Shown here: positions 3,959 to 63,082 of the stretch, one piece after another
How positions within the stretch are numbered: the first letter of the stretch is position 1
How the letters are laid out: the number at the start of each line of letters is the position of its first letter
Program-made: the position numbers and the translations under genes
Source: Thermosipho melanesiensis BI429
GTDB taxonomy: Bacteria > Thermotogota > Thermotogae > Thermotogales > Fervidobacteriaceae
NCBI RefSeq assembly: GCF_000016905.1
Contig: NC_009616.1
Coordinates: 372,001 to 436,000, forward strand
Direction of reading: 5' to 3'
DNA: 64,000 nucleotides
The notes under the pieces: generated by a model
Seen by the model: the letters and a program-made list of their open reading frames with translations, nothing else
Told to the model about the DNA's origin: nothing
Databases searched by the model: none

Positions 3959-5110
3959 ATGAAATTGATATTTGTAGCTTTAGATTTGAGAGATCATCCA
4001 AGTTCAATTGGACCATCTTTGAAAATAAAACAGCAGTGTAATGCTTTTGAAGAACATGGTTTTGATGTTTACGAACTTATGGTTGAAAATAGATTTTTGT
4101 ATATTAGAAGAAAAGACCATAAAGAAAAAATATACAGCTTTAAAAAGAAATGCTTGCTAAAACAAAGTGACAATCCCATTTTAAGACGGTTTAAATTTCT
4201 ATTGAGGATGTCTAAAATATTAGATATCTTAGTTGATTTCATTAAAAAAGAAGATATAAATATTACATATGTAAGAAATCTTTTGCCGTGGAATCCCATA
4301 TCTCTTAGGTTTATAAAACAAGTTAAAAAATTAAAGAATGTTCTAGTATTAGACGTTCCTACATATCCATACAAAGATGAACTATCTAACATTAACAGAT
4401 TTGTAGATGAAATGTTTAATAGATTTGTGGGAAAGTATGTAGACATCATTGTAACCCCTTCAGATGAAAAAGAGATATACGGTGTAAAAAGCTTAAAAGT
4501 GACTAACGGAATAGAGGTCAATAGATTTAAAGTAAAAAATTCTATAAAAAAGGTAGAACGTTTAGATTTAATTGGTGTGGCAAACGTATCTAGATGGCAT
4601 GGATATGATAGAGTAATAAGAGGAATATACGAGTATAATAAAAACTTTCCCAAGTCAAAAGTTTATTTTCATATTGTTGGCAATGGAAAAGAACTTTATA
4701 ATTTGAAGAAATTAACAGTTGATTTGAAACTTGAAGATTTTGTAAAATTTCATGGTTTCAAGGTTGGAGACAAATTAGATAGGCTGTTTGATTTATGCGA
4801 CATTGCAATTGGTTCTTTGGGAATGCATAGAATTGGATTGAGAAAATCTAGTGTTCTCAAAGTTAGAGAATATTGTGCACGTGGAATTCCATTTGTATTA
4901 TCTTCAGATGATGAAGATTTTGAAAATTTTGAATTTATGTTGAAAGTTCCAGCTAATGAATCTCCAATAGACATAGATGAAATTTTAAATTTTTACAAAG
5001 AAATAAAAGAAAAAGATTACGTTAAACTTATGAGAAATTATGCCATGAAAAATTTAAGTTGGAAGAGTAAATTAAAAAGACTGGTAGATGAAATAAAAAA
5101 TCTAATGTAA
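3959..5110 (+). CDS. Glycosyltransferase (GT-B, GT4-like)
   Basis: A 383-residue cytosolic glycosyltransferase of the same operon, preceded by a clear GGAGG SD at about 3948. The C-terminal half shows VYFHIVGNGKELYNLKK and later REYCARGIPFVLSSDDEDF, where conserved glutamate and glycine positions of the donor-binding site are expected. The N-terminal half carries a DxxxHPSSIG segment near residues 10-17 that may line the acceptor pocket. The gene ends head-on against the next glycosyltransferase, overlapping it by 9 bp at the 3' ends. This marks the meeting point of the two converging polysaccharide operons. Substrate is not predictable. Confidence 0.75.
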   Translation: MKLIFVALDLRDHPSSIGPSLKIKQQCNAFEEHGFDVYELMVENRFLYIRRKDHKEKIYSFKKKCLLKQSDNPILRRFKFLLRMSKILDILVDFIKKEDINITYVRNLLPWNPISLRFIKQVKKLKNVLVLDVPTYPYKDELSNINRFVDEMFNRFVGKYVDIIVTPSDEKEIYGVKSLKVTNGIEVNRFKVKNSIKKVERLDLIGVANVSRWHGYDRVIRGIYEYNKNFPKSKVYFHIVGNGKELYNLKKLTVDLKLEDFVKFHGFKVGDKLDRLFDLCDIAIGSLGMHRIGLRKSSVLKVREYCARGIPFVLSSDDEDFENFEFMLKVPANESPIDIDEILNFYKEIKEKDYVKLMRNYAMKNLSWKSKLKRLVDEIKNLM

Positions 5111-12088: not shown

Positions 12089-13060
12089 ATGTTGTACAGT
12101 GATATTCATTACATAGCCTTTAGTATTATTAGTTCAAAAGTAAACAATTATCCCGTTTTCAACCATAAAAATCTTTCGAGATTATTTTTTTTAAGTTTGA
12201 AAAATAACATAAATCTATTCATGTTATCTGAAAAACAACTACGAGAATTTTTGTATACACACAAAGAAAAAATATTTTCAAAAAGACAAAAGGATGTAGA
12301 AAAGTTAATAGAAAGATTTATATTGATTTTTGAAGATAAAAACCTTCTTAAACAGGCAGAAAGCGAAAAAAAGCTCTGTTTTGAAGAGGAAATTCAATAT
12401 GTGGTGTATGAAAATGCTACATATCCAAAAAAATTACATGCTCTAAGAAAACTAGATCATCCTGTTTATGTTTTGTTTTACAAAGGTTATTGGAAAGATT
12501 TCGATAAATTAAAAATAGCTGCGATAATAGGCTCAAGAAATACCAGTAGTGAAGGTTTGGTTTTGGCTAAAAGTTTAGGAAAAGAGCTTTCAATGAACAA
12601 GATATACAACATCAGTGGATTAGCTTTAGGTGCAGATGCCGCAGGACATGAAGGAAGTATGGGATTTACAGGGGCTGTTTTAGGACAAGGGTTAAGTAAA
12701 ATAGAGAAAAGGTTGTATCCAAAGGAGAATATAAAATTACTCTTCGACATATTAAATAAAGGGATTGTTTTATCAGAAATTCCACCAAGTAAAAAGCCTA
12801 TAAAATATTATTTTTTATGCCGAGATAGAATAATATCAGCTTTGGCAGATAGTGTAATTGTGATTGAGTCTAGAAAAAAAGGTGGTACGATGAAAACATT
12901 TCAATATGCAGCAAGTCTTAACAAAAAAATTATTGTCTGGAAAAAAAACATTGACGGTAATTTATTCTTATTGAAAAAATACAATGCACATTCCTTTAAA
13001 CAATACTTTGAAGTACCTAAAATAATAAATAGCCCCATAAATGGGGCTATGTTGTTTTAG
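12089..13060 (+). CDS. dprA: DprA/Smf-like DNA-processing protein
   Basis: DprA binds incoming single-stranded DNA and loads RecA during natural transformation. The 323-residue protein carries the Rossmann-type DprA core from about residue 140: AAIIGSRNTSSEG, then NISGLALGADAAGHEG, VLGQGLSKIEKRLYPKEN, GIVLSEIPPSKKPIKYYF, CRDRIISALADSVIVIESRK and GGTMKTFQYAASLNKKII. These match the family's consensus order, although GADAAGHEG replaces the usual GID..AH and the RN of the RNRII motif is CRDRII. The N-terminal 130 residues are divergent, and the C-terminal winged helix of longer DprA proteins is missing. The ATG at 12089 has a GGGGG SD. It is divergent from the PRTase-RecQ fusion. Confidence 0.82.
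   Translation: MLYSDIHYIAFSIISSKVNNYPVFNHKNLSRLFFLSLKNNINLFMLSEKQLREFLYTHKEKIFSKRQKDVEKLIERFILIFEDKNLLKQAESEKKLCFEEEIQYVVYENATYPKKLHALRKLDHPVYVLFYKGYWKDFDKLKIAAIIGSRNTSSEGLVLAKSLGKELSMNKIYNISGLALGADAAGHEGSMGFTGAVLGQGLSKIEKRLYPKENIKLLFDILNKGIVLSEIPPSKKPIKYYFLCRDRIISALADSVIVIESRKKGGTMKTFQYAASLNKKIIVWKKNIDGNLFLLKKYNAHSFKQYFEVPKIINSPINGAMLF
13031..13048. terminator. Bidirectional hairpin inside the overlapping 3' ends of dprA and the MFS gene
   Basis: An 8-bp stem, AGCCCCAT with a 2-base AA loop and ATGGGGCT, lies within the dprA coding end and includes the MFS stop. The genes overlap tail to tail by 14 bp (13047-13060). The hairpin is symmetrical, so it can stop transcripts from either side, though T-runs are weak. 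Confidence 0.6.
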
Positions 13061-14303
13061 GCTCATACACCTCTTTGGGGGCGATAAGTAAAAACACAAA
13101 TGTTATTAGAGAAGTTAATATTGTCGCAAAAAGAAAGATAAAGTGTGCAGCAATATGGTCCAATAAAAAGCCGTATATCACTGCACCTAAAGGAACCATA
13201 ATTTGTGAAAATACCTCCAATGTGGAAAATACTCTTGACCTTATATCAGAGGGGGTCATGAGTTGTAAATTTGTCGATATTGGAACGTTAACCTGTACAT
13301 TGAAAAAACCAAATGTAAAGTATATTGCAGCTGTCAACCAGAAAAATTGTAAAGTTGAAAATCTTGTTAAAACATCTGGGAAAATAAAGTATGTAAAAAT
13401 AAAAAGTAAGGCAATTTCTACCGCAAGGCCTTGAATCATTAGTGGTTTATTTTTCATTTTACTAAAAAACGATATAAGCGCAATATTTCCCAACAGCATA
13501 CCAATAGTAAAAAATGTTTGTACAAGACCGTATTGTTGTGCACTCATCTTAACAATCTGTCTTAATATATATGGTTCAACAACTTGAAGTAAAGGTGCAA
13601 TTAGAAAATTTGTAAACATGGCAAATGTAAACAATATTTTTAAACTTCTCTTTTTCACAATAAAAACTAATCCCTCTTTAAATTCTATAAAAAAGGATTT
13701 GGCAGAAAGTTTTTCTTTTGTTTTAAATAAAGTGTTATATTCAATAAACATTTCACTAATTGCAGATAAGATAAAGGAAATACCGTTGAATAGAAAAACT
13801 AGAGAAATACCGAAGAATCCATATATTACCCCACCAAGAATAGGTCCAATTATCATTGAAAATGAATTTACCGTACCTAAAATGGAATTTGCCCTTCTAA
13901 GTTGTTCTTCTGAAACAATATCTGGTAGCATAGCACTAGTTGCAGCTCCGAAAAAGCCATCCAATACAGATACAATAGCCTGTATAATGAATAATATAAT
14001 TAATTGTAGCATATTTCTAAAAGATAATATGTATAAAAGTATAATTAAGATACCTCTAATAAAATCAGTTAATACCATTATGTTTTTTCTATTGAATCTA
14101 TCACCAATTACTCCTGAAAAAGGTGCAGCAAGGAGCCGTGGAAGAATCCCAAGAAGCGTAAATATTCCCATGGCTGTACCTGAGCCCGTTTTGTCTAGAA
14201 TATACAATGGAATTGCAATCATTTGTATACCGGAACCAATTAGTGAAACAAGCCTTCCTAAAATAAAAAGCGTGAAATTTTTATTTAAGGTTATTTTCCT
14301 CAC
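13047..14303 (-). CDS. MFS transporter (MFS_3 / drug-exporter type)
   Basis: A 418-residue secondary transporter with 12 predicted membrane segments. The segment after helix 2, FSGVIGDRFNRKNIMVLTD, is the MFS motif A. The N-terminus (FILGRLVSLIGSGIQMIAIP) and the arrangement resemble EntS-like and macrolide-type exporters of the MFS_3 group. The start is a GTG at 14303 that overlaps the end of the upstream bactofilin-like gene by 23 bp, so it is the distal gene of a DUF2089-bactofilin-MFS operon. Substrate is unknown. Confidence 0.85.
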   Translation of the reverse strand: MRKITLNKNFTLFILGRLVSLIGSGIQMIAIPLYILDKTGSGTAMGIFTLLGILPRLLAAPFSGVIGDRFNRKNIMVLTDFIRGILIILLYILSFRNMLQLIILFIIQAIVSVLDGFFGAATSAMLPDIVSEEQLRRANSILGTVNSFSMIIGPILGGVIYGFFGISLVFLFNGISFILSAISEMFIEYNTLFKTKEKLSAKSFFIEFKEGLVFIVKKRSLKILFTFAMFTNFLIAPLLQVVEPYILRQIVKMSAQQYGLVQTFFTIGMLLGNIALISFFSKMKNKPLMIQGLAVEIALLFIFTYFIFPDVLTRFSTLQFFWLTAAIYFTFGFFNVQVNVPISTNLQLMTPSDIRSRVFSTLEVFSQIMVPLGAVIYGFLLDHIAAHFIFLFATILTSLITFVFLLIAPKEVYEPKTT

Positions 14304-15309
14304 AAGACAACCCCCCGGTATTTAATTTTCCATTGCCGGAAATGGTTTCACAATGGACAAATCCAGCGTTTAGCGTTCCGTTTAGGATTATATCTTCTGC
14401 TGTTACATTACCTGTACTAATTGCGGCGTTTTCATCCACTTCTATATCTTCTGCATTTATGTTTCTACATTTTAATGTTCCGGAGACCTTCAATGTTTCA
14501 ACATTTACATCGTCACAAGATACTCCACCTTTTATTTCCATATTTTCTGCAGATATATTTTTCCCGTGCAGTGCACCTAATACAGTAATTTCTTCTGATG
14601 AGATATTGTTACAATTTACTTTTCCCATTACTTTAATGTTGTTGACTCTTAAATCTGAACAATTTGCTTTCCCAAGCACTTCCAAATGTTCTGCGGTTAT
14701 ACTGTTTCCCTCAAAAAATCCATTAACTATCACTTTTTCTGCCTCAATATCATCATCTGTTTTAAATATATCATCTACAATTAAAACATCGTGTTTTTTC
14801 TTTTTTCTAAAATTTCCTTTTTTTACTTCAAATCCAGACATAAATGGTTTTATTATTTTAAATATCCCCTTTAAAAATAAGTTGTTTACCCTTGTAAGGC
14901 CTCCATACACTTTTGGAGGTGTCCCTTTTTCTTTACATGAAACCACATTTAATCCACCATGTATTACACCACCCTCCCAATTTACTTTTGAACCAACTAC
15001 ATTAAGATCACCGTCTATTTCACCTGAAAATGTTAGTTCCCCAAATACCACGGAACAATCTCCAAGAACTTTTCCACGTATAATTGCTTCTCCATTTACT
15101 ATGTTTAGATCTCCTTTAAATTCCTCTCCTTCTTCTATTACCGTAACATCTCCCATTATTGGTTCTTCTGAATTATTCGTTTCGTAAAAATCATAGCCAC
15201 GTTTTTCTTCGTTTTCTTTTTCCTTTATAGCTTTAATCAATGCTTCCGCATCTTCAACAGATATTTCCCCCTTTTTTAACGATTCAAGTACTTTTTTTAT
15301 TTCATCCAT
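14281..15309 (-). CDS. Bactofilin-like polymer-forming protein with N-terminal SHOCT-like helix pair
   Basis: A 342-residue cytosolic protein. Residues 1-30 form a short helical module with LKKGEISVEDAEALIKAIKE, like the SHOCT-type start of YvlB relatives. The rest is a repeating right-handed beta-helix rich in short beta turns (for example GEAIIRGKVLGDCSVVFGEL, and many near-repeats from about residue 190 on). Bactofilins polymerise without nucleotide and scaffold cell-wall or surface processes. It overlaps the DUF2089 gene by 8 bp and the MFS gene by 23 bp, so all three are translated together. The middle (about 150-190) is lysine-rich and less repetitive. Confidence 0.7.
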   Translation of the reverse strand: MDEIKKVLESLKKGEISVEDAEALIKAIKEKENEEKRGYDFYETNNSEEPIMGDVTVIEEGEEFKGDLNIVNGEAIIRGKVLGDCSVVFGELTFSGEIDGDLNVVGSKVNWEGGVIHGGLNVVSCKEKGTPPKVYGGLTRVNNLFLKGIFKIIKPFMSGFEVKKGNFRKKKKHDVLIVDDIFKTDDDIEAEKVIVNGFFEGNSITAEHLEVLGKANCSDLRVNNIKVMGKVNCNNISSEEITVLGALHGKNISAENMEIKGGVSCDDVNVETLKVSGTLKCRNINAEDIEVDENAAISTGNVTAEDIILNGTLNAGFVHCETISGNGKLNTGGLSCEENNLK

Positions 15310-54826: not shown

Positions 54827-55410
54827 TAATATGTAAAGTATTGTGTAGATTCTTTTGCTTGTCATTCTTTGATATTATACATAAATAAAAAATTAAAAGT
54901 CAAATTCATTTGAGAGAGTTAGAAAAAATTTTTAACATAAAATCCCAAAACAAATAAAAAACTATTATCGTCAATTGTAGAATATCATCTTTGCCCATAT
55001 CATTTTCTTTGCTATTTCTATTCTCTTTGTCCTTTCGAAAATACAATACACGTTCTTCAGCTTTTCTATTACCTGTTCTATTATTTTTTTCTTTGTGTTT
55101 GTCTCTGTTATTTTTGTGCATTTTTTTACTTTTGTATCTGTATTATCTTTTTTCTTAACTAATGCGACTTTTCTTTCGCAATAAATACCTTTAGTACTCT
55201 ACAATTCTAATGTATGACGCATATTCCATTATACATTAATGATAAAACTCTCATAACACATTCTTGGCCTATCACGTTTTTCCTTTTTAAAGATTATTTC
55301 TTGAATTCGTAAATTTCCCATTCTTTAGCTAAGATTTTATGTCGAATATGGTTCGTTTTTGAATTTTTAAAACGTTCAAAAGCATAAACATATGTCTTTC
55401 ATCCATTAAT
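54827..55410. other. Gap with no supported gene before the tRNA remnant
   Basis: AT-rich, with a basic Lys/Asn/Arg-rich minus frame (54906-55121) that lacks an SD. No RNA gene or clear regulatory site was found. Confidence 0.45.
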
Positions 55411-55430
55411 TAGTGGTTAATCAGGCTACG

Positions 55431-55448
55431 CTCCGCCGGAGCCAGTGA
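55431..55448 (+). repeat. att-like repeat, copy 2 (right end of the integrated region)
   Basis: Exact 18-bp match to the tRNA-Asn 3' end at 33485-33502. Confidence 0.65.
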
Positions 55449-55472
55449 AAGGAATTTTTAGGAGATTAAAAC

Positions 55473-55497
55473 GGAACCATATGGTTCCACTTTTTAT
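55473..55497. terminator. Palindromic terminator after the ABC ATPase gene
   Basis: GGAACCAT/ATGGTTCC, an 8-bp self-complementary stem followed on + by ACTTTTTATG. It sits 18 bp past the minus-strand ATPase stop and may act in both directions. Confidence 0.6.
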
Positions 55498-55514
55498 GTT
55501 TTGTTAATTGATTT

Positions 55515-56210
55515 TTAAACATACTTCAAAAGTATAGTCTCTATTTCTTTATGCTCTCTAACATTTAGCTCGCCTATCTTTCTACCTTTTTGAAGTATTA
55601 CTATTTTATCTATCTTTTTCAACTCTTCTATTTCATGTGTTGCAAAAAGAACTATTTTCTTTTTTTGAACCAACTCTTCAATAAGTTCATATATCTTTTG
55701 TTGCGTTTTTATATCCACACCACTTGTTGTCTCATCAAATATATATACTTCTGCCTCTTTTAGTAATGCTCGCGCTATGTCTAGTCTTCTCTTTAATCCT
55801 TTTGACAATTCCATGTATTTTATGTTTGTATATTCTGAAAGTGCTGTTTCTTCAATTACCCTTTCTACGGTCATTTTTAAAGCTTTTCCAAGTAAGCCAT
55901 TAAGCATTCCAAAAAATTCTAAATTTTGTTTTACTGTTAACCTGTAATAAAAACTTCTTTCTATACCTGTTGATATTGTTATTTTTTCCTTAGCATATTT
56001 TTGATTTTTTAATAAGTCTACATTATTTAGTAAAATTTTCCCACTATCTGGTATCAAAAACGTTGCTATTATTTTTAAAAGGGTTGTCTTTCCTGCGCCG
56101 TTTTCTCCAAAAAACGACATTGTCTCCCCTTTTCCTATCTTTACACTTACACCTTTTAATGCTTCAATTTTATTTTTGTATCTCTTTCTTATTTCTTTAA
56201 TTTCAAGCAC
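55515..56210 (-). CDS. ABC transporter ATPase of the RiPP cassette
   Basis: 231 residues with Walker A GENGAGKTTLLKI near residue 35, a signature motif in ELSKGLKRRLDIARAL near 135 (LSKGxK rather than LSGGQ), Walker B VYIFDE near 155 and an H-loop ATHEIEEL near 195. It is the last gene of the cassette, 10 bp after the permease, so it probably powers export by the ABC-2 permease. A truncated duplicate of its 3' half lies at 62182. Confidence 0.9.
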   Translation of the reverse strand: MLEIKEIRKRYKNKIEALKGVSVKIGKGETMSFFGENGAGKTTLLKIIATFLIPDSGKILLNNVDLLKNQKYAKEKITISTGIERSFYYRLTVKQNLEFFGMLNGLLGKALKMTVERVIEETALSEYTNIKYMELSKGLKRRLDIARALLKEAEVYIFDETTSGVDIKTQQKIYELIEELVQKKKIVLFATHEIEELKKIDKIVILQKGRKIGELNVREHKEIETILLKYV

Positions 56211-56220
56211 AGTTTCCTCC

Positions 56221-57036
56221 CTAATACCAAGTAAGTGTACCTTCTTTTCTTGCTTTATTAAAATTTGTATTAAATAGCCATACTCCTAATGGGAAAATAA
56301 TTAATCCCATAGTCAGCATGATTAGCAAGCCCTTTTTTATTTCACCAATATTGTACCCTTTTAGCAAAGTATTTCTTAAAAGATCCATACCATACGTTGT
56401 TGGAAGAAAGTATGATATTTTTTTTAGAAAAGTTGGAAAGATTTCTATTGGATAATATATTCCTGAAAAAAGTCCAGAAAGAGTAAAATATATCCATCCA
56501 ACTGGATCTCCTCTCTTTGTCACTAGTATCATTGCAGCAGAAAGGAGTCCTATCCCTGAAAGTGAAAATGTCACCACTATTAACACTAAAAAAGTTGAAA
56601 AGACATTTACCTTTACTTCAACCGAAAAAAGAAAAACAAGAGCAAAAAATATAAATAAAATATTTAAAGTTGTAAACAAAAAACCACTTAAAAAATTAAA
56701 AATAAACAGTTGCCAGAATGATGTTCTTGAGAGTAATAAATATTCAAGTGTGCCCATGTTTTGTTCTCTTTGAATTGAAGTTTTGAAGGTAGATAAAGCA
56801 AGATTTGTATATGACATAAATACAGACCCTGTAATGAAGTATGCAAGGATATCTCCTCCATATTTTTCTATCAATGGAAAATAATTCCCACCTGCTATAA
56901 ATTTACCTATGAGACCAAATTGTATTATTCCTACAAATCCACTTAAAAGTCTCAATATAAATTGTGTTCGGTATGAAAACCATATAATTATATCTCGCTT
57001 TATAAAGATAAATAACTTTAGAAAGAACTCTATCAA
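56221..57036 (-). CDS. ABC-2 type permease of the RiPP cassette
   Basis: About 271 residues with six hydrophobic helices and an ABC-2-like C-terminus (SGLFSGIYYPIEIFPTFLKK; ISYFLPTTYGMDLLRNTLL). The frame extends upstream to 57147, but the TTG at 57036 follows a GGGGGG SD and gives a start IEFFLKLFIFIKRDIIIWF. It lies between the peptide gene and the ATPase, with 10 bp to the latter. It probably exports the matured peptide. Confidence 0.85.
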   Translation of the reverse strand: MIEFFLKLFIFIKRDIIIWFSYRTQFILRLLSGFVGIIQFGLIGKFIAGGNYFPLIEKYGGDILAYFITGSVFMSYTNLALSTFKTSIQREQNMGTLEYLLLSRTSFWQLFIFNFLSGFLFTTLNILFIFFALVFLFSVEVKVNVFSTFLVLIVVTFSLSGIGLLSAAMILVTKRGDPVGWIYFTLSGLFSGIYYPIEIFPTFLKKISYFLPTTYGMDLLRNTLLKGYNIGEIKKGLLIMLTMGLIIFPLGVWLFNTNFNKARKEGTLTWY

Positions 57037-57395
57037 ATCTTTCCCCCCTTTATCTCTACTTAACTCTTTACCGAAAGTCTCTATTTGAACCTTAGCAAAG
57101 AAAACAGTTAATTTTCCCATAGGCAACATTAACAACAAGTTAATCATCTTTATGGAAATATTTTGAACTTAAAAAATAAAATATTCCACACCATGAGTTT
57201 AAAATGACAAAAAGCTTGAAATAATATAAATTTGTGAATATAGTATTTTTACATAAATCACACAATATTAATTGGTTGTAAAAAAAATCACGTACCTGTA
57301 AATAACTTTGTGATTTATAGAATTATAATTAATAAATTTAATTTTATGAATAGGAAAGAAGGAAGGGGATTTAAAATTTTAAACACTACAAACAA
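57037..57395. promoter_or_regulatory. Gap before the permease with repeated AATCAC/GTGATT sites
   Basis: The AT-rich gap between peptide and permease genes holds AAATCAC at 57255-57261 and 57285-57291 (30 bp apart) and GTGATTT at 57310-57316. This could be an operator region for an internal promoter. No ORF is supported. Confidence 0.35.
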
Positions 57396-57572
57396 TTAAT
57401 ACGGAGCTGGTAAGATACCTACACCACAAATATCATAGGGGCATATTTTATCGCATATTATAAAATCGCATATGTCCTCTCCTCCACAAAATCCGTCACC
57501 GTCTCCGGGTGTAAGACATGCTTCTGGAGCTATTTCTTCTTCTGGATTATTATTTAACAATTTTAGTTTCAA
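57396..57572 (-). CDS. Six-cysteine RiPP precursor peptide candidate
   Basis: 58 residues from the TTG at 57572 (GGGGGG SD eight bases upstream; a GTG at 57581 would overlap that SD). A leader (KLKLLNNNPEEEIAPEA) precedes a core with cysteines at about 19, 29, 35, 40, 44 and 49, rich in Asp, Gly and Ile (GDGDGFCGGEDICDFIICDK), ending GILPAPY. Cysteine-rich peptides beside radical SAM/SPASM enzymes are typical precursors of sactipeptide- or ranthipeptide-type products. No transmembrane or secretion signal is seen. It lies between the S41 peptidase and the permease. Confidence 0.7.
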   Translation of the reverse strand: MKLKLLNNNPEEEIAPEACLTPGDGDGFCGGEDICDFIICDKICPYDICGVGILPAPY

Positions 57573-57645
57573 TTTTTTCACCCCCCTTTCTTTAATCCCC
57601 CTTCCTTCTTATAGAACAAAATTAATTTAAAAAATATTCAAGTTT

Positions 57646-59130
57646 TTACCTATTTTCAATAAGTTTTATTGCTTTTTCAAGCAATGGATCAGAATTGCTA
57701 GTTATCCATTCTAGCTTTTCTTTTTTTGTCATTGCAAATTCATAATCCAGTGTTATTTCGTGATATCTTGGAAAGTACTTATATGAACCAGGAATATAAA
57801 CGTAAAATCCTACTCTTGGTAGGTAATATATATTACCAGACATAGTACTATTTATTGAGTAAACAGGTCTTTGGCCAATTACCTTCCCAAGTTTATTATT
57901 TTGAACAATAGCTGTAAAGACTAACGCTGCAGATGCTATATTTCTATCTATAAGTATCCATACTTTTCCTTCAAAAGTTGGAACGTTTGGCTTTATTATA
58001 AGAGCAGAACTTTTCTCAATTAATTTCCCTAGTTTATTATTTTGAACAATAGCTGTAAAGACTAACGCTGCAGATGCTATATTTCTATCTATAAGTATCC
58101 ATACTTTTCCTTCAAAAGTTGGAACGTTTGGCTTTATTATAAGAGCAGAACTTTTCTCAATTAATTTCCCTTTTGTGTTTTCATCATAACGAATTCCTGC
58201 TGCTTCTAAAATCTTTATATTGTACTTAGAATTTTTAATACGTTCTTTGTATTTTACATAAAGCTCTTCTTTTACCAAATATCCCAGTACCTCTAATACA
58301 CTATTTAAAGATCCTCCTGAATTTCTTCTTATATCTATTACTAAATCTGACATATCCTTGTTTTTTTCAAAAATTTCTTTTAAAAATTCTTTGAAATCAC
58401 CAAACAATCTTCCTCCAAGTTTAAAAGTAGATATTCTCAATATTCCTATATTTCCTTTTCTTTCAAAATTATAAAGTGTTCTTGAGATTTTTTTATCCTT
58501 TTGAACTTTCTTTAATGCTTCTTCTCTTGTCATAGCATCTATCTTTATTTTTTTCTTTACTCCATTATATTCAAACTCTATTTTTACACTCTTTTTGCTC
58601 CAGAAAGTTGGTATATAAGTAAGATATCTGGACAAAAAACGTTCTTTGAGATCAGCATTGTTTTTTATGTAAAGATATTGTTCAAATTCTTTTATAATTT
58701 CTTTTGAAGAAATATCATCTATTTTCAAAATTTTAGATTTTACTGGTACATCATCAATTAAAGAGAAAGACACATAAATATCATTATCTATAACATAAAG
58801 TGTAAAAGGAAAAACCAGAATATCTGATGGTATTTCAATATCACAGTGGTAATCATTAAGATAACGAAAAAGTGGTACAACTGTTTTGTAAAACTCTAAT
58901 TTATCCATAGGTTTCTCAAGTTTTTTTCTTATATCTTCAACAACTTCCGTAAATTCCTGATTTTTAACCAGGCCATCTGGATCAATATATGCTTCTTTTA
59001 AGAGGAGAACTAAAAAATCAAAATCCTGTTGTAATTTTACCGACTCAATTTTAATTGCAAATGTTAATGACGAGAAAAAAATACTTATTAAAAAAATCAC
59101 AAATAGCAACCTTTTTTTATGTTTTTTCAC
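57646..59130 (-). CDS. S41 family (C-terminal processing-type) peptidase with internal tandem duplication
   Basis: About 494 residues from the GTG at 59130 (GGGGG SD), with an N-terminal signal/anchor (KKHKKRLLFVIFLISIFFSS). The S41 core shows SDLVIDIRRNSGGSLNSVLE and GKVWILIDRNIASAALVF, the segment with the catalytic serine. A 47-residue unit containing that segment occurs twice in a row, identical at DNA level (141 bp at 57891 and 58032), so one enzyme has two copies of the active-site strand. S41 enzymes often process RiPP leaders in radical SAM clusters. Confidence 0.85.
   Translation of the reverse strand: MKKHKKRLLFVIFLISIFFSSLTFAIKIESVKLQQDFDFLVLLLKEAYIDPDGLVKNQEFTEVVEDIRKKLEKPMDKLEFYKTVVPLFRYLNDYHCDIEIPSDILVFPFTLYVIDNDIYVSFSLIDDVPVKSKILKIDDISSKEIIKEFEQYLYIKNNADLKERFLSRYLTYIPTFWSKKSVKIEFEYNGVKKKIKIDAMTREEALKKVQKDKKISRTLYNFERKGNIGILRISTFKLGGRLFGDFKEFLKEIFEKNKDMSDLVIDIRRNSGGSLNSVLEVLGYLVKEELYVKYKERIKNSKYNIKILEAAGIRYDENTKGKLIEKSSALIIKPNVPTFEGKVWILIDRNIASAALVFTAIVQNNKLGKLIEKSSALIIKPNVPTFEGKVWILIDRNIASAALVFTAIVQNNKLGKVIGQRPVYSINSTMSGNIYYLPRVGFYVYIPGSYKYFPRYHEITLDYEFAMTKKEKLEWITSNSDPLLEKAIKLIENR
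57891..58172. repeat. Exact tandem duplication of 141 bp inside the S41 gene
   Basis: Two 141-bp units in tandem, apparently identical by eye, encode the same 47 residues including the catalytic-serine strand. In frame, so the gene stays open. Confidence 0.9.
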
Positions 59131-59260
59131 AAAATTCCCCCTTTTTAAAGAAATATTCTTGATAAGCCTCCTGATTTCCCACATATACTACTTACCAAAT
59201 CGTTTCTCAAACTAACCCTTTTCCAACTAGATCACTCTTTTTGAATGTTCCAACATTCCT

Positions 59261-60580
59261 TTAGTTAATTATTTTGTTGTTTTTTGAAAAGCTATTTCTT
59301 AGTTCATCAGGTAGATGCGCATATAATATTAGCCCTAATTCAATTAATTTCTTTCTGAAATGACAACTGTACTTATCAATGGAATTCCACTTATTAGTTT
59401 CAATCAGTGATTCATGATAACATCTTCCAGCACAAATGTACTTTGCCCAGCAGTTAACACAGTCTTGTAAATGATCCACTTCATGAATTTTATTAGAAAA
59501 CAATCTTTCTGCATTTTTAATAATTTCTTCACGAGTATTCTTAACTATATTTCCTACTTTGCCATTATCACTCCCATCCAATCTATGGCAAATATAAACG
59601 TCTCCTATTGGATTTACAACCAAAACTCTTCTACCACCACCGCATGGATAAAACCTTTTGCTTCTTCTTCGAAGAATATCCATAGTAAATTTTATCCAAC
59701 CAAATGTTTGAGTGAAAACTTTTTCATAGTCTTTTCTCTTCGCTAAATTTATAATATATTTTCCATACTTATCAATTGTCGAAGATAATTTATCAAGGTT
59801 AGGCCTTAATCCTAATTCTTTTTCTGTAACTAGTTGAATTGTGAAAAGTAAATTCATATTCACAAAATGTTTTACTAACTCAATTAAATCGTTATTTACC
59901 GAAGTTAAGGTAGCATGAACACTAATTCTCCTATTTATATCATGTGAAGTTAATGTTTTAATACCTTCTATAATACGAGTATACGTACCTTCATTATTTT
60001 TTGTGCGGCGCAATTTATCATTGTTCAATTTATTGCCATCCAAACTTACCATAATGTTAAAATCATTATTTTTCAAAAAACTTGCTATATCATCATTTAT
60101 TAAAGTTCCATTAGTTGTTATCCCAAATCTTACATTTTTCCCAAGATATTTTTTTGCAAATTTTACAACCTGTCTTATAACTTCAAAGTTAATTAGAGGT
60201 TCTCCACCAAAAAATGAAATTCCTACATTTGATTGTTCTTTGTCAAATAATTTTTCAATTGCCATTTTTGCAATTTTAAAGTCCATTATCCCAGCGTTGT
60301 TGTAAGTACCAGAGTTTCCATAACAATATTTACATTGTAAATTACATTCATGAGAAATTGTCAAAACAATTGCATCAATGTTGAAATTTTTTTCAGATTT
60401 TGCAAAATTATTTTTCTGATTATTTGGTATTTGTTTGTATATTTCTTCTTTAACAAAACTTGGCAAAGTATCTCTATGGTATAATAACGAAAATAACTCA
60501 TTATCAATTTCAAATAATAAAATTTCATTTGGCAAAAAGAGAAGTTTCTTTCCAAAACGATTTATAAGTTTAAATTCCAT
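59261..60580 (-). CDS. Radical SAM/SPASM peptide maturase
   Basis: 439 residues. The radical SAM motif CNLQCKYC (Cys about 79, 83, 86) binds the SAM [4Fe-4S] cluster, followed by FFGGEPLINF (GGEP). The SPASM domain carries seven cysteines (about 313, 331, 374, 377, 383, 387, 406), as in PCGGGRRVLVVNPIGDVYIC and QDCVNCWAKYICAGRCYHES, for two auxiliary clusters. The ATG at 60580 is spaced 9 bp from an AGGAGGG SD; two upstream ATGs are too close. It has an N-terminal region of about 70 residues, possibly a RiPP recognition element. First gene of the cassette. Confidence 0.92.
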   Translation of the reverse strand: MEFKLINRFGKKLLFLPNEILLFEIDNELFSLLYHRDTLPSFVKEEIYKQIPNNQKNNFAKSEKNFNIDAIVLTISHECNLQCKYCYGNSGTYNNAGIMDFKIAKMAIEKLFDKEQSNVGISFFGGEPLINFEVIRQVVKFAKKYLGKNVRFGITTNGTLINDDIASFLKNNDFNIMVSLDGNKLNNDKLRRTKNNEGTYTRIIEGIKTLTSHDINRRISVHATLTSVNNDLIELVKHFVNMNLLFTIQLVTEKELGLRPNLDKLSSTIDKYGKYIINLAKRKDYEKVFTQTFGWIKFTMDILRRRSKRFYPCGGGRRVLVVNPIGDVYICHRLDGSDNGKVGNIVKNTREEIIKNAERLFSNKIHEVDHLQDCVNCWAKYICAGRCYHESLIETNKWNSIDKYSCHFRKKLIELGLILYAHLPDELRNSFSKNNKIIN

Positions 60581-60607
60581 GATTCTCATCCCTCCTATCA
60601 TTTAATA

Positions 60608-60621
60608 AATAAACGTTTATT
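60608..60621. promoter_or_regulatory. Palindrome upstream of the maturase gene
   Basis: AATAAACGTTTATT, a perfect 14-bp palindrome 28 bp upstream of the maturase start. A likely repressor site for the cassette operon. Confidence 0.45.
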
Positions 60622-61019
60622 AAAGCATCACTAAAGTTATCTCGATAGATATATGAAAAATTTCGCTTGCAAAGTAAAATATTTGAAAATTTTTTCTACT
60701 TATTTTTTCAGCATTATTAGTACTTTAATCTTAAAATACATTTAAAATATCTGCAAACTCTATTAATATGAGTTATAAAAGATTATTTTTTTTTTTTTTG
60801 AAAAATATCGTATATTTTCTTTTAAATACTATAATTTTCTATATAAACTTATAGAATTTTTTGATTTTTATATATATATATTCAACATTATAAATATTAT
60901 TATTTTAATATTTATTTAATACTTAATACTTTTTCAATTTTTTAATTTATATATTAAATTTTTAATTTATATAATTAAATAATTTTTTACAAACTATTAA
61001 TATAACCCATTTCTATGCT
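60622..61019. other. Very AT-rich gap without a gene
   Basis: Almost entirely A and T, with a run of 14 T near 60786. No ORF or hairpin is supported. It is probably the promoter region of the maturase operon. Confidence 0.5.
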
Positions 61020-61650
61020 CCATATAAACAGCTACATCTCAACTTTAGAAAAAATGGGATTTTAATTAAAAGAAAAACCAAAAAATATGTCGGTGAATTC
61101 AAATTAGTTGAATATGTTTCAATAATTTTTCGAAGTATCGACATAAGAATTGTGGCTCGCTCTTATTTAATGGAAATTTTATTGCAAACAGGCCAAACTG
61201 TCCATATGGTTATAAAAGAAGGGTTTGAGGGAGTTTATATAGAAAAATTAGAAAGTTTTAGAAGTTTACCAATGATTTTAAGAACAGGAATGAGAGCACC
61301 TCTTTACTGCACGGCATTTGGTAAATCAATCTTAGCATATCTATCCCATGAAGAACTAAAAAAATACATATCAAGTGTAGCGGCCAAAAAAAAGACTCCT
61401 AATACCATTACAAACGGAAAAGTTTTAAAAATGGAATTACAAAAAGTCCGGAAACAGGGTTATGCAATTGACAACGAAGAAAATGAGCAAGAAGTAACAT
61501 GTATAGGAAATCTTATTTTAAATCATAAAGGATAGCTATCAGTATATCCGGAGTATCAAGAATACCAAACCTAGAACAAATGAATTCGGTAATTTAGTCA
61601 AGCAATGCGCTAAGAATGTTTCAAAAATTTTGAGGTATAAGCAAGATGCT
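61020..61650 (+). pseudogene. IclR family regulator remnant
   Basis: The C-terminal effector-binding domain of an IclR regulator is readable at 61152-61535: YLMEILLQTGQTVHMVIKEG, RSLPMILRTGMRAPLYCTAF and GKSILAYLSHEELKKYISS, with KTPNTITNGKVL and EEN.EVTCIGN. The N-terminal helix-turn-helix is missing; upstream frames show scattered fragments (YVGEFKLVEYVSIIFRSID). Downstream the family end (IAISISGVSRIPNLEQM, then FGNLVKQCAKNVSKIL) lies in two further frames. Decayed. Confidence 0.75.
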
Positions 61651-62077
61651 TAAAAAATAGAACTTTTTATCTATAATTGTTTAGCACAAAAATTCTTCAG
61701 TTTCTAGTTCTCAAAAACTCTCATTTTATTTTACTTATTACTCTATTTTGATACAACGTTTTATTAGTAAACTTAAACAATTCTTTATTTATATCAGATT
61801 TGTGAATATTCCCTAACTTTATATATTTAACTTTAACAACCTCATATAAAATCGGCCCTTAGTTTAAGGCTTAATGTTTTATCCTTATGTTCGCTTATAT
61901 CCTAACTTCTAGTAGTAAAGCCTCTTTGTAAATTTCAAATATTAATTTTAACATGAAAAATTCCTTCTTATCAACTAAACTTTTTCATTCTTAATGTCTA
62001 GACCTGAAAAAAACAACAATCAATACAAAAATACTAAATCAATTAAAATATATTAGTTGATTATATAAACAACCATT
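61651..62077. other. Gap without a gene
   Basis: AT-rich, no supported ORF, RNA or hairpin before the second repeat copy. Confidence 0.45.
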
Positions 62078-62467
62078 TAGTGGTTAATCAGTCTATGCTT
62101 CGCCGGAGCCAGTGAAAGGAATTTTTAGGAGATTAAAACGGAACCATATGGTTCCGCTTTTTATGTTTTGTTAATTGATTTTTAAACATACTTCAAAAGT
62201 ATAGTCTCTATTTCTTTATGCTCTCTAACATTTAGCTCGCCTATCTTTCTACCTTTTTGAAGTATTACTATTTTATCTATCTTTTTCAACTCTTCTATTT
62301 CATGTGTTGCAAAAAGAACTATTTTCTTTTTTTGAACCAACTCTTCAATAAGTTCATATATCTTTTGCCGCGTTTTTATATCCACACCACTTGTTGTTTC
62401 ATCAAATATATATACTGTTGATATTGTTATTTTTTCCTTAGCATATTTTTGATTTTTTAATAAGTCT
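62078..62467. repeat. Long direct repeat, copy B (with 219-bp internal deletion)
   Basis: Matches copy A 55411-55748 at 62078-62415 and then 55968-56019 at 62416-62467. A 219-bp segment (73 codons, in frame) is missing at an ATAC/TGTT junction. The tRNA end here reads CTTCGCCGGAGCCAGTGA, one mismatch to copy A. Confidence 0.8.
62182..62467 (-). pseudogene. Truncated ABC ATPase duplicate
   Basis: The last 67 codons equal those of the ATPase at 55515 apart from one Gln-to-Arg change (DIKTRQKIYEL). Upstream they are fused in frame to KNQKYAKEKITIST from near the N-terminus, so Walker A and signature motif are deleted and no start codon remains. Non-functional. Confidence 0.85.
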
Positions 62468-62503
62468 GGCCAATTTAATAGTTTTCATACAAAAAGCATT
62501 TTC

Positions 62504-63082
62504 CTAGTAATTTCCATTTTTAAAAAAAGGGTTTATTTTAAATAAATCTGAGATTTTACACACTTTTTCATGCCCTGGTAAAATAAACATATTTTTGTTA
62601 AGTTTTAAAAATACATCGTTTAATCTTTTAATTGCTTCATTCATCAATTTTTTTGACCCACCCAAATCGCTTCTCCCTACTGTATTGCAAAATACAGTGT
62701 CTCCTGTAAATATTAAATCTTCGAATATAATTATCCTAGACCCCAAAGTATGCCCAGGAACCTTTATTGTTTCAAAGAAAACATCAATATCTTCTGCATC
62801 TTTCTCATATATAAACGTTGTCCCAAAAAGATGAGAAAAATTCTCATTTGGATCATACAACATTTTCTTATCTTCTTTAGAAATATAAACTTTTTCCACA
62901 TTAAGTTCTGTAAGACCAGCAATATGATCATAGTGCCCGTGAGTTAAAAGCACACAAACGGGTATATCACCTAAATACCTACCTATTCCAAAACCTGGAT
63001 CCACAACATAAATTCTTTCTTTTTTGAAAACATAAGTATTCGTCCCTAAAAATCCAGATGTTTTGTACAATTTAAATTCCAT
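62504..63082 (-). CDS. Metallo-beta-lactamase-fold hydrolase (glyoxalase II-like)
   Basis: 192 residues. LLTHGHYDHIAGL is the HxHxDH metal motif, VPGHTLGS and FTGDTVFCNTVGRSDLGGS add the remaining ligands, and ILPGHE ends the site. The small size and GRSDLGG match YcbL/glyoxalase II-like hydrolases. Substrate is unknown. It ends right beside repeat copy B. Confidence 0.87.
   Translation of the reverse strand: MEFKLYKTSGFLGTNTYVFKKERIYVVDPGFGIGRYLGDIPVCVLLTHGHYDHIAGLTELNVEKVYISKEDKKMLYDPNENFSHLFGTTFIYEKDAEDIDVFFETIKVPGHTLGSRIIIFEDLIFTGDTVFCNTVGRSDLGGSKKLMNEAIKRLNDVFLKLNKNMFILPGHEKVCKISDLFKINPFFKNGNY

Follow-up and report, generated by a model that had tools for sequence, protein, structure and literature searches.

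The window, by which we mean the whole 64,000-nucleotide stretch analysed (Thermosipho melanesiensis BI429, contig NC_009616.1, positions 372,001 to 436,000), encodes on its minus strand a cassette with the gene order radical SAM/SPASM enzyme, S41 peptidase, short Cys-rich peptide, ABC-2 permease, and ABC ATPase. The features, in window coordinates, are these:

62077 to 62480, minus strand: decayed second copy of the ATPase gene (98% identity over 300 nt, 91% over 66 nt)
59261 to 60601, minus strand: radical SAM/SPASM maturase, its N-terminus RRE-like (PF04055 and PF13186 both exceed the gathering score)
57646 to 59184, minus strand: S41 peptidase bearing a signal or anchor helix at its N-terminus (PF03572, 95.1 bits against 24)
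57591 to 57610, minus strand: 5′ arm of an inverted repeat (AAGAAGGAAGGGGGATTAAA), ending just before the Shine-Dalgarno-like sequence
57579 to 57590, minus strand: Shine-Dalgarno-like sequence GAAAGGGGGGTG, about 7 nt before the TTG start
57396 to 57572, minus strand: precursor peptide gene, TTG to TAA, 58 aa, product (M)KLKLLNNNPEEEIAPEACLTPGDGDGFCGGEDICDFIICDKICPYDICGVGILPAPY
57572 to 57519, minus strand: probable leader, residues 1 to 18, its boundary inferred from the first conserved Cys and its cut site a prediction
57518 to 57399, minus strand: Cys-rich core, residues 19 to 58 (40 aa), with the boundary inferred in the same way
57356 to 57375, minus strand: 3′ arm of the inverted repeat (TTTAAATCCCCTTCCTTCTT), beginning about 20 nt after the stop codon
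56221 to 57147, minus strand: ABC-2 type permease of the exporter (PF01061), a family also found beside related precursors in loci L056, L057, and L058
55515 to 56210, minus strand: ABC ATPase of the exporter (PF00005)

The peptide has six Cys, at residues 19, 29, 35, 40, 44, and 49, and its core has a net charge of −6. An earlier note, made from the DNA alone, had picked out this ORF for its six-Cys acidic core, and the gene is borne out by homologues in two places, one in a second Thermosipho-like genome (locus L053; E = 6.6e-17) and one elsewhere in the same genome (locus L052; E = 5.2e-16), both beside homologous radical SAM and S41 genes. It is a real gene under purifying selection, with dN/dS values of 0.23 to 0.37 among the close trio of window, L052, and L053, values that are rough given the few sites. 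An in-frame GTG at 57581 lies upstream of the TTG in the window, but its counterpart in L053 is out of frame, which rules it out as the start, while the TTG is kept there with a Shine-Dalgarno about 7 nt before it. Because only the TTG is conserved in frame in that comparison, TTG 57572 is the supported start. The note had chosen this codon too, on the strength of a run of six G. The run is not kept, reading GGGGTG in L052 and GGAGTG in L053, and what is conserved at the same place in both is a Shine-Dalgarno. The peptide has no Pfam or NCBIfam match at E up to 1; plasmid records likewise gave no match. It has no Sec signal, and a dedicated exporter is present in the cassette.

The maturase, whose true start is probably ATG 60580 judged by comparison, carries the CxxxCxxC motif, the SPASM Cys, which are invariant among its homologues, and a candidate RRE. 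Its best curated NCBIfam models are PapB (NF047865, 238.2 bits against an equivalog cut-off of 340), the nif11 radical SAM enzyme (230 against 519), and the SCIFF maturase (TIGR03974, 228.9 against 425), so that it falls below the cut-off of each, and the curated models of sactipeptide maturases score far under all three (RumMC, 126 bits). The closest solved structure is CteB (PDB 5wgg and 5why; phmmer E = 8.8e-52). The AlphaFold2 model is modest (pLDDT 64), but it has three strands and then helices before the radical SAM core, as in an RRE, and it aligns to CteB with Z = 21.5 and rmsd 4.7 over 368 residues, spanning residues 16 to 431 and including the RRE region; SkfB comes well below that at Z = 14.1. 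Resting as it does on a modest model and a structural alignment, the N-terminus is called RRE-like here. Because the best models, though sub-cut-off, are PapB, nif11, and SCIFF, the closest structure is CteB, and the N-terminal fold is RRE-like, we place the enzyme near the ranthipeptide enzymes and claim no membership. Cassette members of its subfamily score E < 1e-100 and other proteins about 1e-73 or weaker. Outside the Thermotogota, a scan of genome contigs found only distant relatives, in one Prevotellaceae and one Anaerococcus contig.

The S41 peptidase has its probable catalytic Ser and the PF03572 domain, and the Ser and the D-x-H motif are invariant in six homologues. Its model (pLDDT 76) has a fold nearest to CPAF (E = 8.5e-19), followed by the Bacteroides uniformis structure 4ghn (E = 4.4e-17). 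The window copy contains an in-frame 141-nt tandem duplication at 57851 to 58132, 90% identical between copies, which repeats 47 residues including the probable catalytic Ser; homologues have a single copy, and much of the first duplicated copy is disordered in the model. Because the protein has an N-terminal signal or anchor helix, it is probably exported, and any trimming would follow export. Pfam finds ABC-2 membrane domains alone in the permease, with no peptidase domain, and the window cassette encodes no peptidase other than S41. A second copy of a 300-nt stretch that takes in the end of the ATPase gene occupies 62077 to 62376 (98% identity), and further traces reach 62480. This copy lies upstream of the radical SAM gene and is probably the leftover of a former tandem cassette. 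Also upstream of the cassette is a fragment of an IclR-type regulator, its C-terminal domain only, at 61152 to 61535.

Besides the decayed locus in the same genome, related loci are present twice in the second Thermosipho-like genome and in a further three genera of Thermotogota. The L052 locus in the same genome is decaying, since its radical SAM protein lacks roughly 165 N-terminal residues and the S41 frame breaks within a stretch of twelve T; that stretch (L052:9081-9120) lies in the S41 signal sequence and represents decay or possibly a slippage site. At L053 (genome G003, from the same genus) one cassette is close to that of the window, with a 62% identical radical SAM enzyme, and the other has a different core. 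Genome G080 (L057) has two precursors and two S41 genes with the same exporter, and G007 (L103) has two precursor-S41 pairs. In G081 and G072 (L056 and L058), precursors of the same leader type are accompanied, instead of by S41, by exported proteins roughly 850 aa long that combine an HExxH-like motif with a beta-propeller region (L056:9600-12152 and 12591-15140; L058:1192-3780). Throughout the S41-type lineage, the gene immediately ahead of each precursor is an S41 gene or, in one case (L057), the remnant of one.

A profile built from 12 precursors found 13 in 7 of 103 Thermotogota genomes. The 12 aligned precursors begin M-x-[hydrophobic]-[KR]-[hydrophobic]-[hydrophobic], followed by N, an invariant P, and the first core Cys, and their cores vary, with 3 to 6 Cys and charges of −5 to −8 (ten scored). 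This is a strongly acidic family that we found only in Thermotogota, with what is expected of RiPP precursors, a short conserved leader and a variable core beside a maturase in several genomes. The earlier note had proposed that fixed Cys and Asp positions in homologues would be the check, and that it would fail if no homologue lay near a SPASM gene and the six Cys were not conserved. Window and L053 can be aligned at all six Cys, the decayed L052 copy retains five, and ACLTPGDGDGxCGGED and C-x2-D-x-C, with their GDGD and CGGED, are fixed in the close trio. With these homologues adjoining the same enzyme, the idea that the peptide is a substrate of its SPASM neighbor fares well, as a reading of sequence conservation, and the refuting case named in the note does not arise. 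The exported protease, the inverted repeat around the gene, and the related precursors are additions to what the note described. Two other peptide types were seen along the way. One begins MEFLNEP... or MEFxNxP..., with CDGE/CDFG and Trp-rich tails, and lies beside paired radical SAM genes; in Thermosipho-like genomes and elsewhere in the Thermotogota it shares the ABC-2 exporter family of the precursors above (L053:776-976 and 4030-4227; L103:6359-6562; L060:13032-13193; L062:12259-12420). The other, of 34 to 35 aa and ending C-G-S-C-K-x-G-K-L-T-P, adjoins another radical SAM gene and a large ABC transporter (L053:5177-5284; L072:6641-6748; L104:17044-17148).

The arms of the inverted repeat enclose the precursor ORF as a stem, which is present in L052 and L053 too and shows two double compensatory changes, noted by eye. 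Just outside GAAGG, the window has an A-T pair where both of the others have T-A, and in L053 one of the G-C pairs within the stem is instead A-T. Perfect pairing runs to 13, 16, and 17 nt in the three loci. Of 300 shuffles for each, 1, 0, and 0 did as well, and around 47 other ORFs of the window such pairing never exceeds 11. Folding predicted for 70 °C includes the stem in each of the three homologues, with z-scores of −3.0, −3.3, and −3.1, compared with only −0.75, −2.8, and −1.3 at 37 °C. A function of the stem as RNA is likely on this comparison of three sequences, two of them close. Since the 5′ arm ends before the Shine-Dalgarno and the 3′ arm follows the stop, translation of the ORF could take place within a closed loop. 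Rfam has no match at gathering scores across 55000 to 62600, and precursors outside the trio are without the repeat. We discounted a strong flanking duplex at L056:9079, because its downstream arm is the region ahead of the duplicated precursor that comes next and because the perfect-match test gave it no support.

Putting these together, our preferred reading, to which we give a probability of roughly 65%, is that 57396 to 57572 encodes the precursor of a ranthipeptide-like RiPP. The radical SAM/SPASM enzyme would bind the short leader through its RRE-like N-terminus and use radical chemistry to join core Cys by thioethers, the most likely partners being side-chain carbons of neighboring Asp or Glu. 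The ABC-2 transporter would export the modified and presumably bioactive product, and the exported S41 peptidase would remove the leader outside the cytoplasm. In the mRNA, the stem of the two repeat arms would enclose the precursor ORF and probably stabilize the message or tune its expression. Several observations count against this reading: the enzyme is sub-cut-off for PapB, nif11, and SCIFF, and its model is modest; the core has a single strict C-x3-D, and acids after Cys are weakly enriched in the family; the pairs in G007 have no dedicated radical SAM gene nearby; and the stem is known from three sequences, with weaker z-scores at 37 °C. A more far-reaching version, which we regard as a long shot, would have these be Thermotogota-specific anionic thioether peptides whose evolving unit is the precursor with its own S41, serving both immunity and trimming, and whose dose is set by the closed RNA loop at 70 °C.

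On the chemistry, a ranthipeptide has a thioether from Cys to a carbon other than the alpha carbon, and a sactipeptide has one to the alpha carbon. The same enzyme might join Cys sulfur to the alpha position, as happens in subtilosin and thuricin CD, which is how the locus was assigned in the publication discussed below, and alpha links are inseparable from beta or gamma links by sequence alone. We consider that outcome improbable, though, with the RumMC model so far below PapB, nif11, and SCIFF, and with SkfB ranking so far below CteB as a structure. PapB makes Cys-Asp links and accepts spacings of C-X0-6-D (PMC9413430). Because the enzyme is nearest to PapB and the SCIFF maturases, thioethers to Asp, as the earlier note had suggested, are plausible; for its further suggestions of Ile as an acceptor and of metal binding, composition is the only support. 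Five of the six window Cys have an acid within five residues downstream, although across the family the tendency for acids to follow Cys is weak (p = 0.015 by permutation, with sequences that are not independent), and we do not adopt it as a family-wide rule. Very improbable is an acidic peptide that the radical SAM enzyme leaves alone, whether unmodified, disulfide-rich, or metal-binding. The acidic Cys-rich composition would suit it, but the family is linked to one radical SAM subfamily in most clusters and keeps its short leader, and the peptide has a dedicated exporter in place of a Sec signal.

The strongest competitor concerns the protease. S41 could instead confer immunity or resistance by destroying the peptide that the cell itself exports, with another enzyme removing the leader, and this is a serious rival to trimming because close S41 relatives occur in other genomes without a recognized precursor. 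S41 has also been duplicated together with precursors in L057 and L103 despite nearly alike leaders, although tandem duplication of the whole module would explain that pairing as well. With no other peptidase in the cassette or in the exporter, and with another exported putative peptidase standing in its place where S41 is absent (L056, L058), we think immunity alone rather unlikely, and leader removal by S41 is the role we retain. For the inverted repeat, one could imagine a role as DNA, either as the ends of a mobile precursor cassette or as a cruciform, given that it flanks one gene in three loci of a patchily distributed family. In the same genome, however, the pattern is confined to the two precursor loci except for one two-mismatch match elsewhere, which rules out an origin as a dispersed repeat, and reading the flanks showed no target-site duplication. 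Furthermore, S41 is upstream of the precursor in all three loci, and therefore the repeat-bounded segment has not moved alone. We accordingly hold a DNA role to be quite unlikely and keep to the RNA stem.

The cluster is not new, because its radical SAM gene, at 431 to 433 kb of the genome, is very probably Tmel_0409, which Letzel et al. (2014; PMC4289311) listed as the radical SAM gene of a putative sactipeptide cluster in this strain. The entry for Tmel_0409 in that paper gives the radical SAM gene alone, with the precursor, the protease pairing, the relatives, and the inverted repeat undescribed in its text. In the literature searched, mostly without subscription journals and preprints, no description turned up of the precursor family, the S41 pairing, the stem, or the substitution of S41 by another exported protein; the first three thus appear undescribed, though such coverage makes this weak evidence of novelty. 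The words "Family S41" do not occur in a text search of a review of RiPP leader proteases (PMC10885120). If the preferred reading is true, the Thermotogota, for which few RiPPs have been described, gain a distinct radical SAM peptide family whose heat-stable maturases may join Cys to acidic acceptors over a range of spacings. It would also suggest that an S41 protease can partner a radical SAM peptide in trimming or immunity, and that a precursor gene can lie within a structured mRNA.

Among known systems, freyrasin (PapA/PapB) likewise has a Cys-rich acidic core beside a radical SAM/SPASM enzyme, and PapB is the best-scoring curated model for the window enzyme. Freyrasin has six C-x3-D/E motifs, whereas the window core has mixed spacings and a single strict C-x3-D (C29-D33), and the window locus has in addition an S41 partner and a flanking inverted repeat, a comparison that leaves the PapA locus itself aside. 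The SCIFF peptides (CteA/CteB, Tte1186) share about six Cys in a short peptide, with CteB as the closest structure, RRE region included, but the window peptide lacks an NCBIfam match and has a strongly acidic core, and its maturase scores 229 against 425. S41 peptidases of the CPAF/tricorn type have the fold, the D-x-H motif, and the Ser in common with the window protein, which differs from them in that its type sits directly before RiPP precursor genes.
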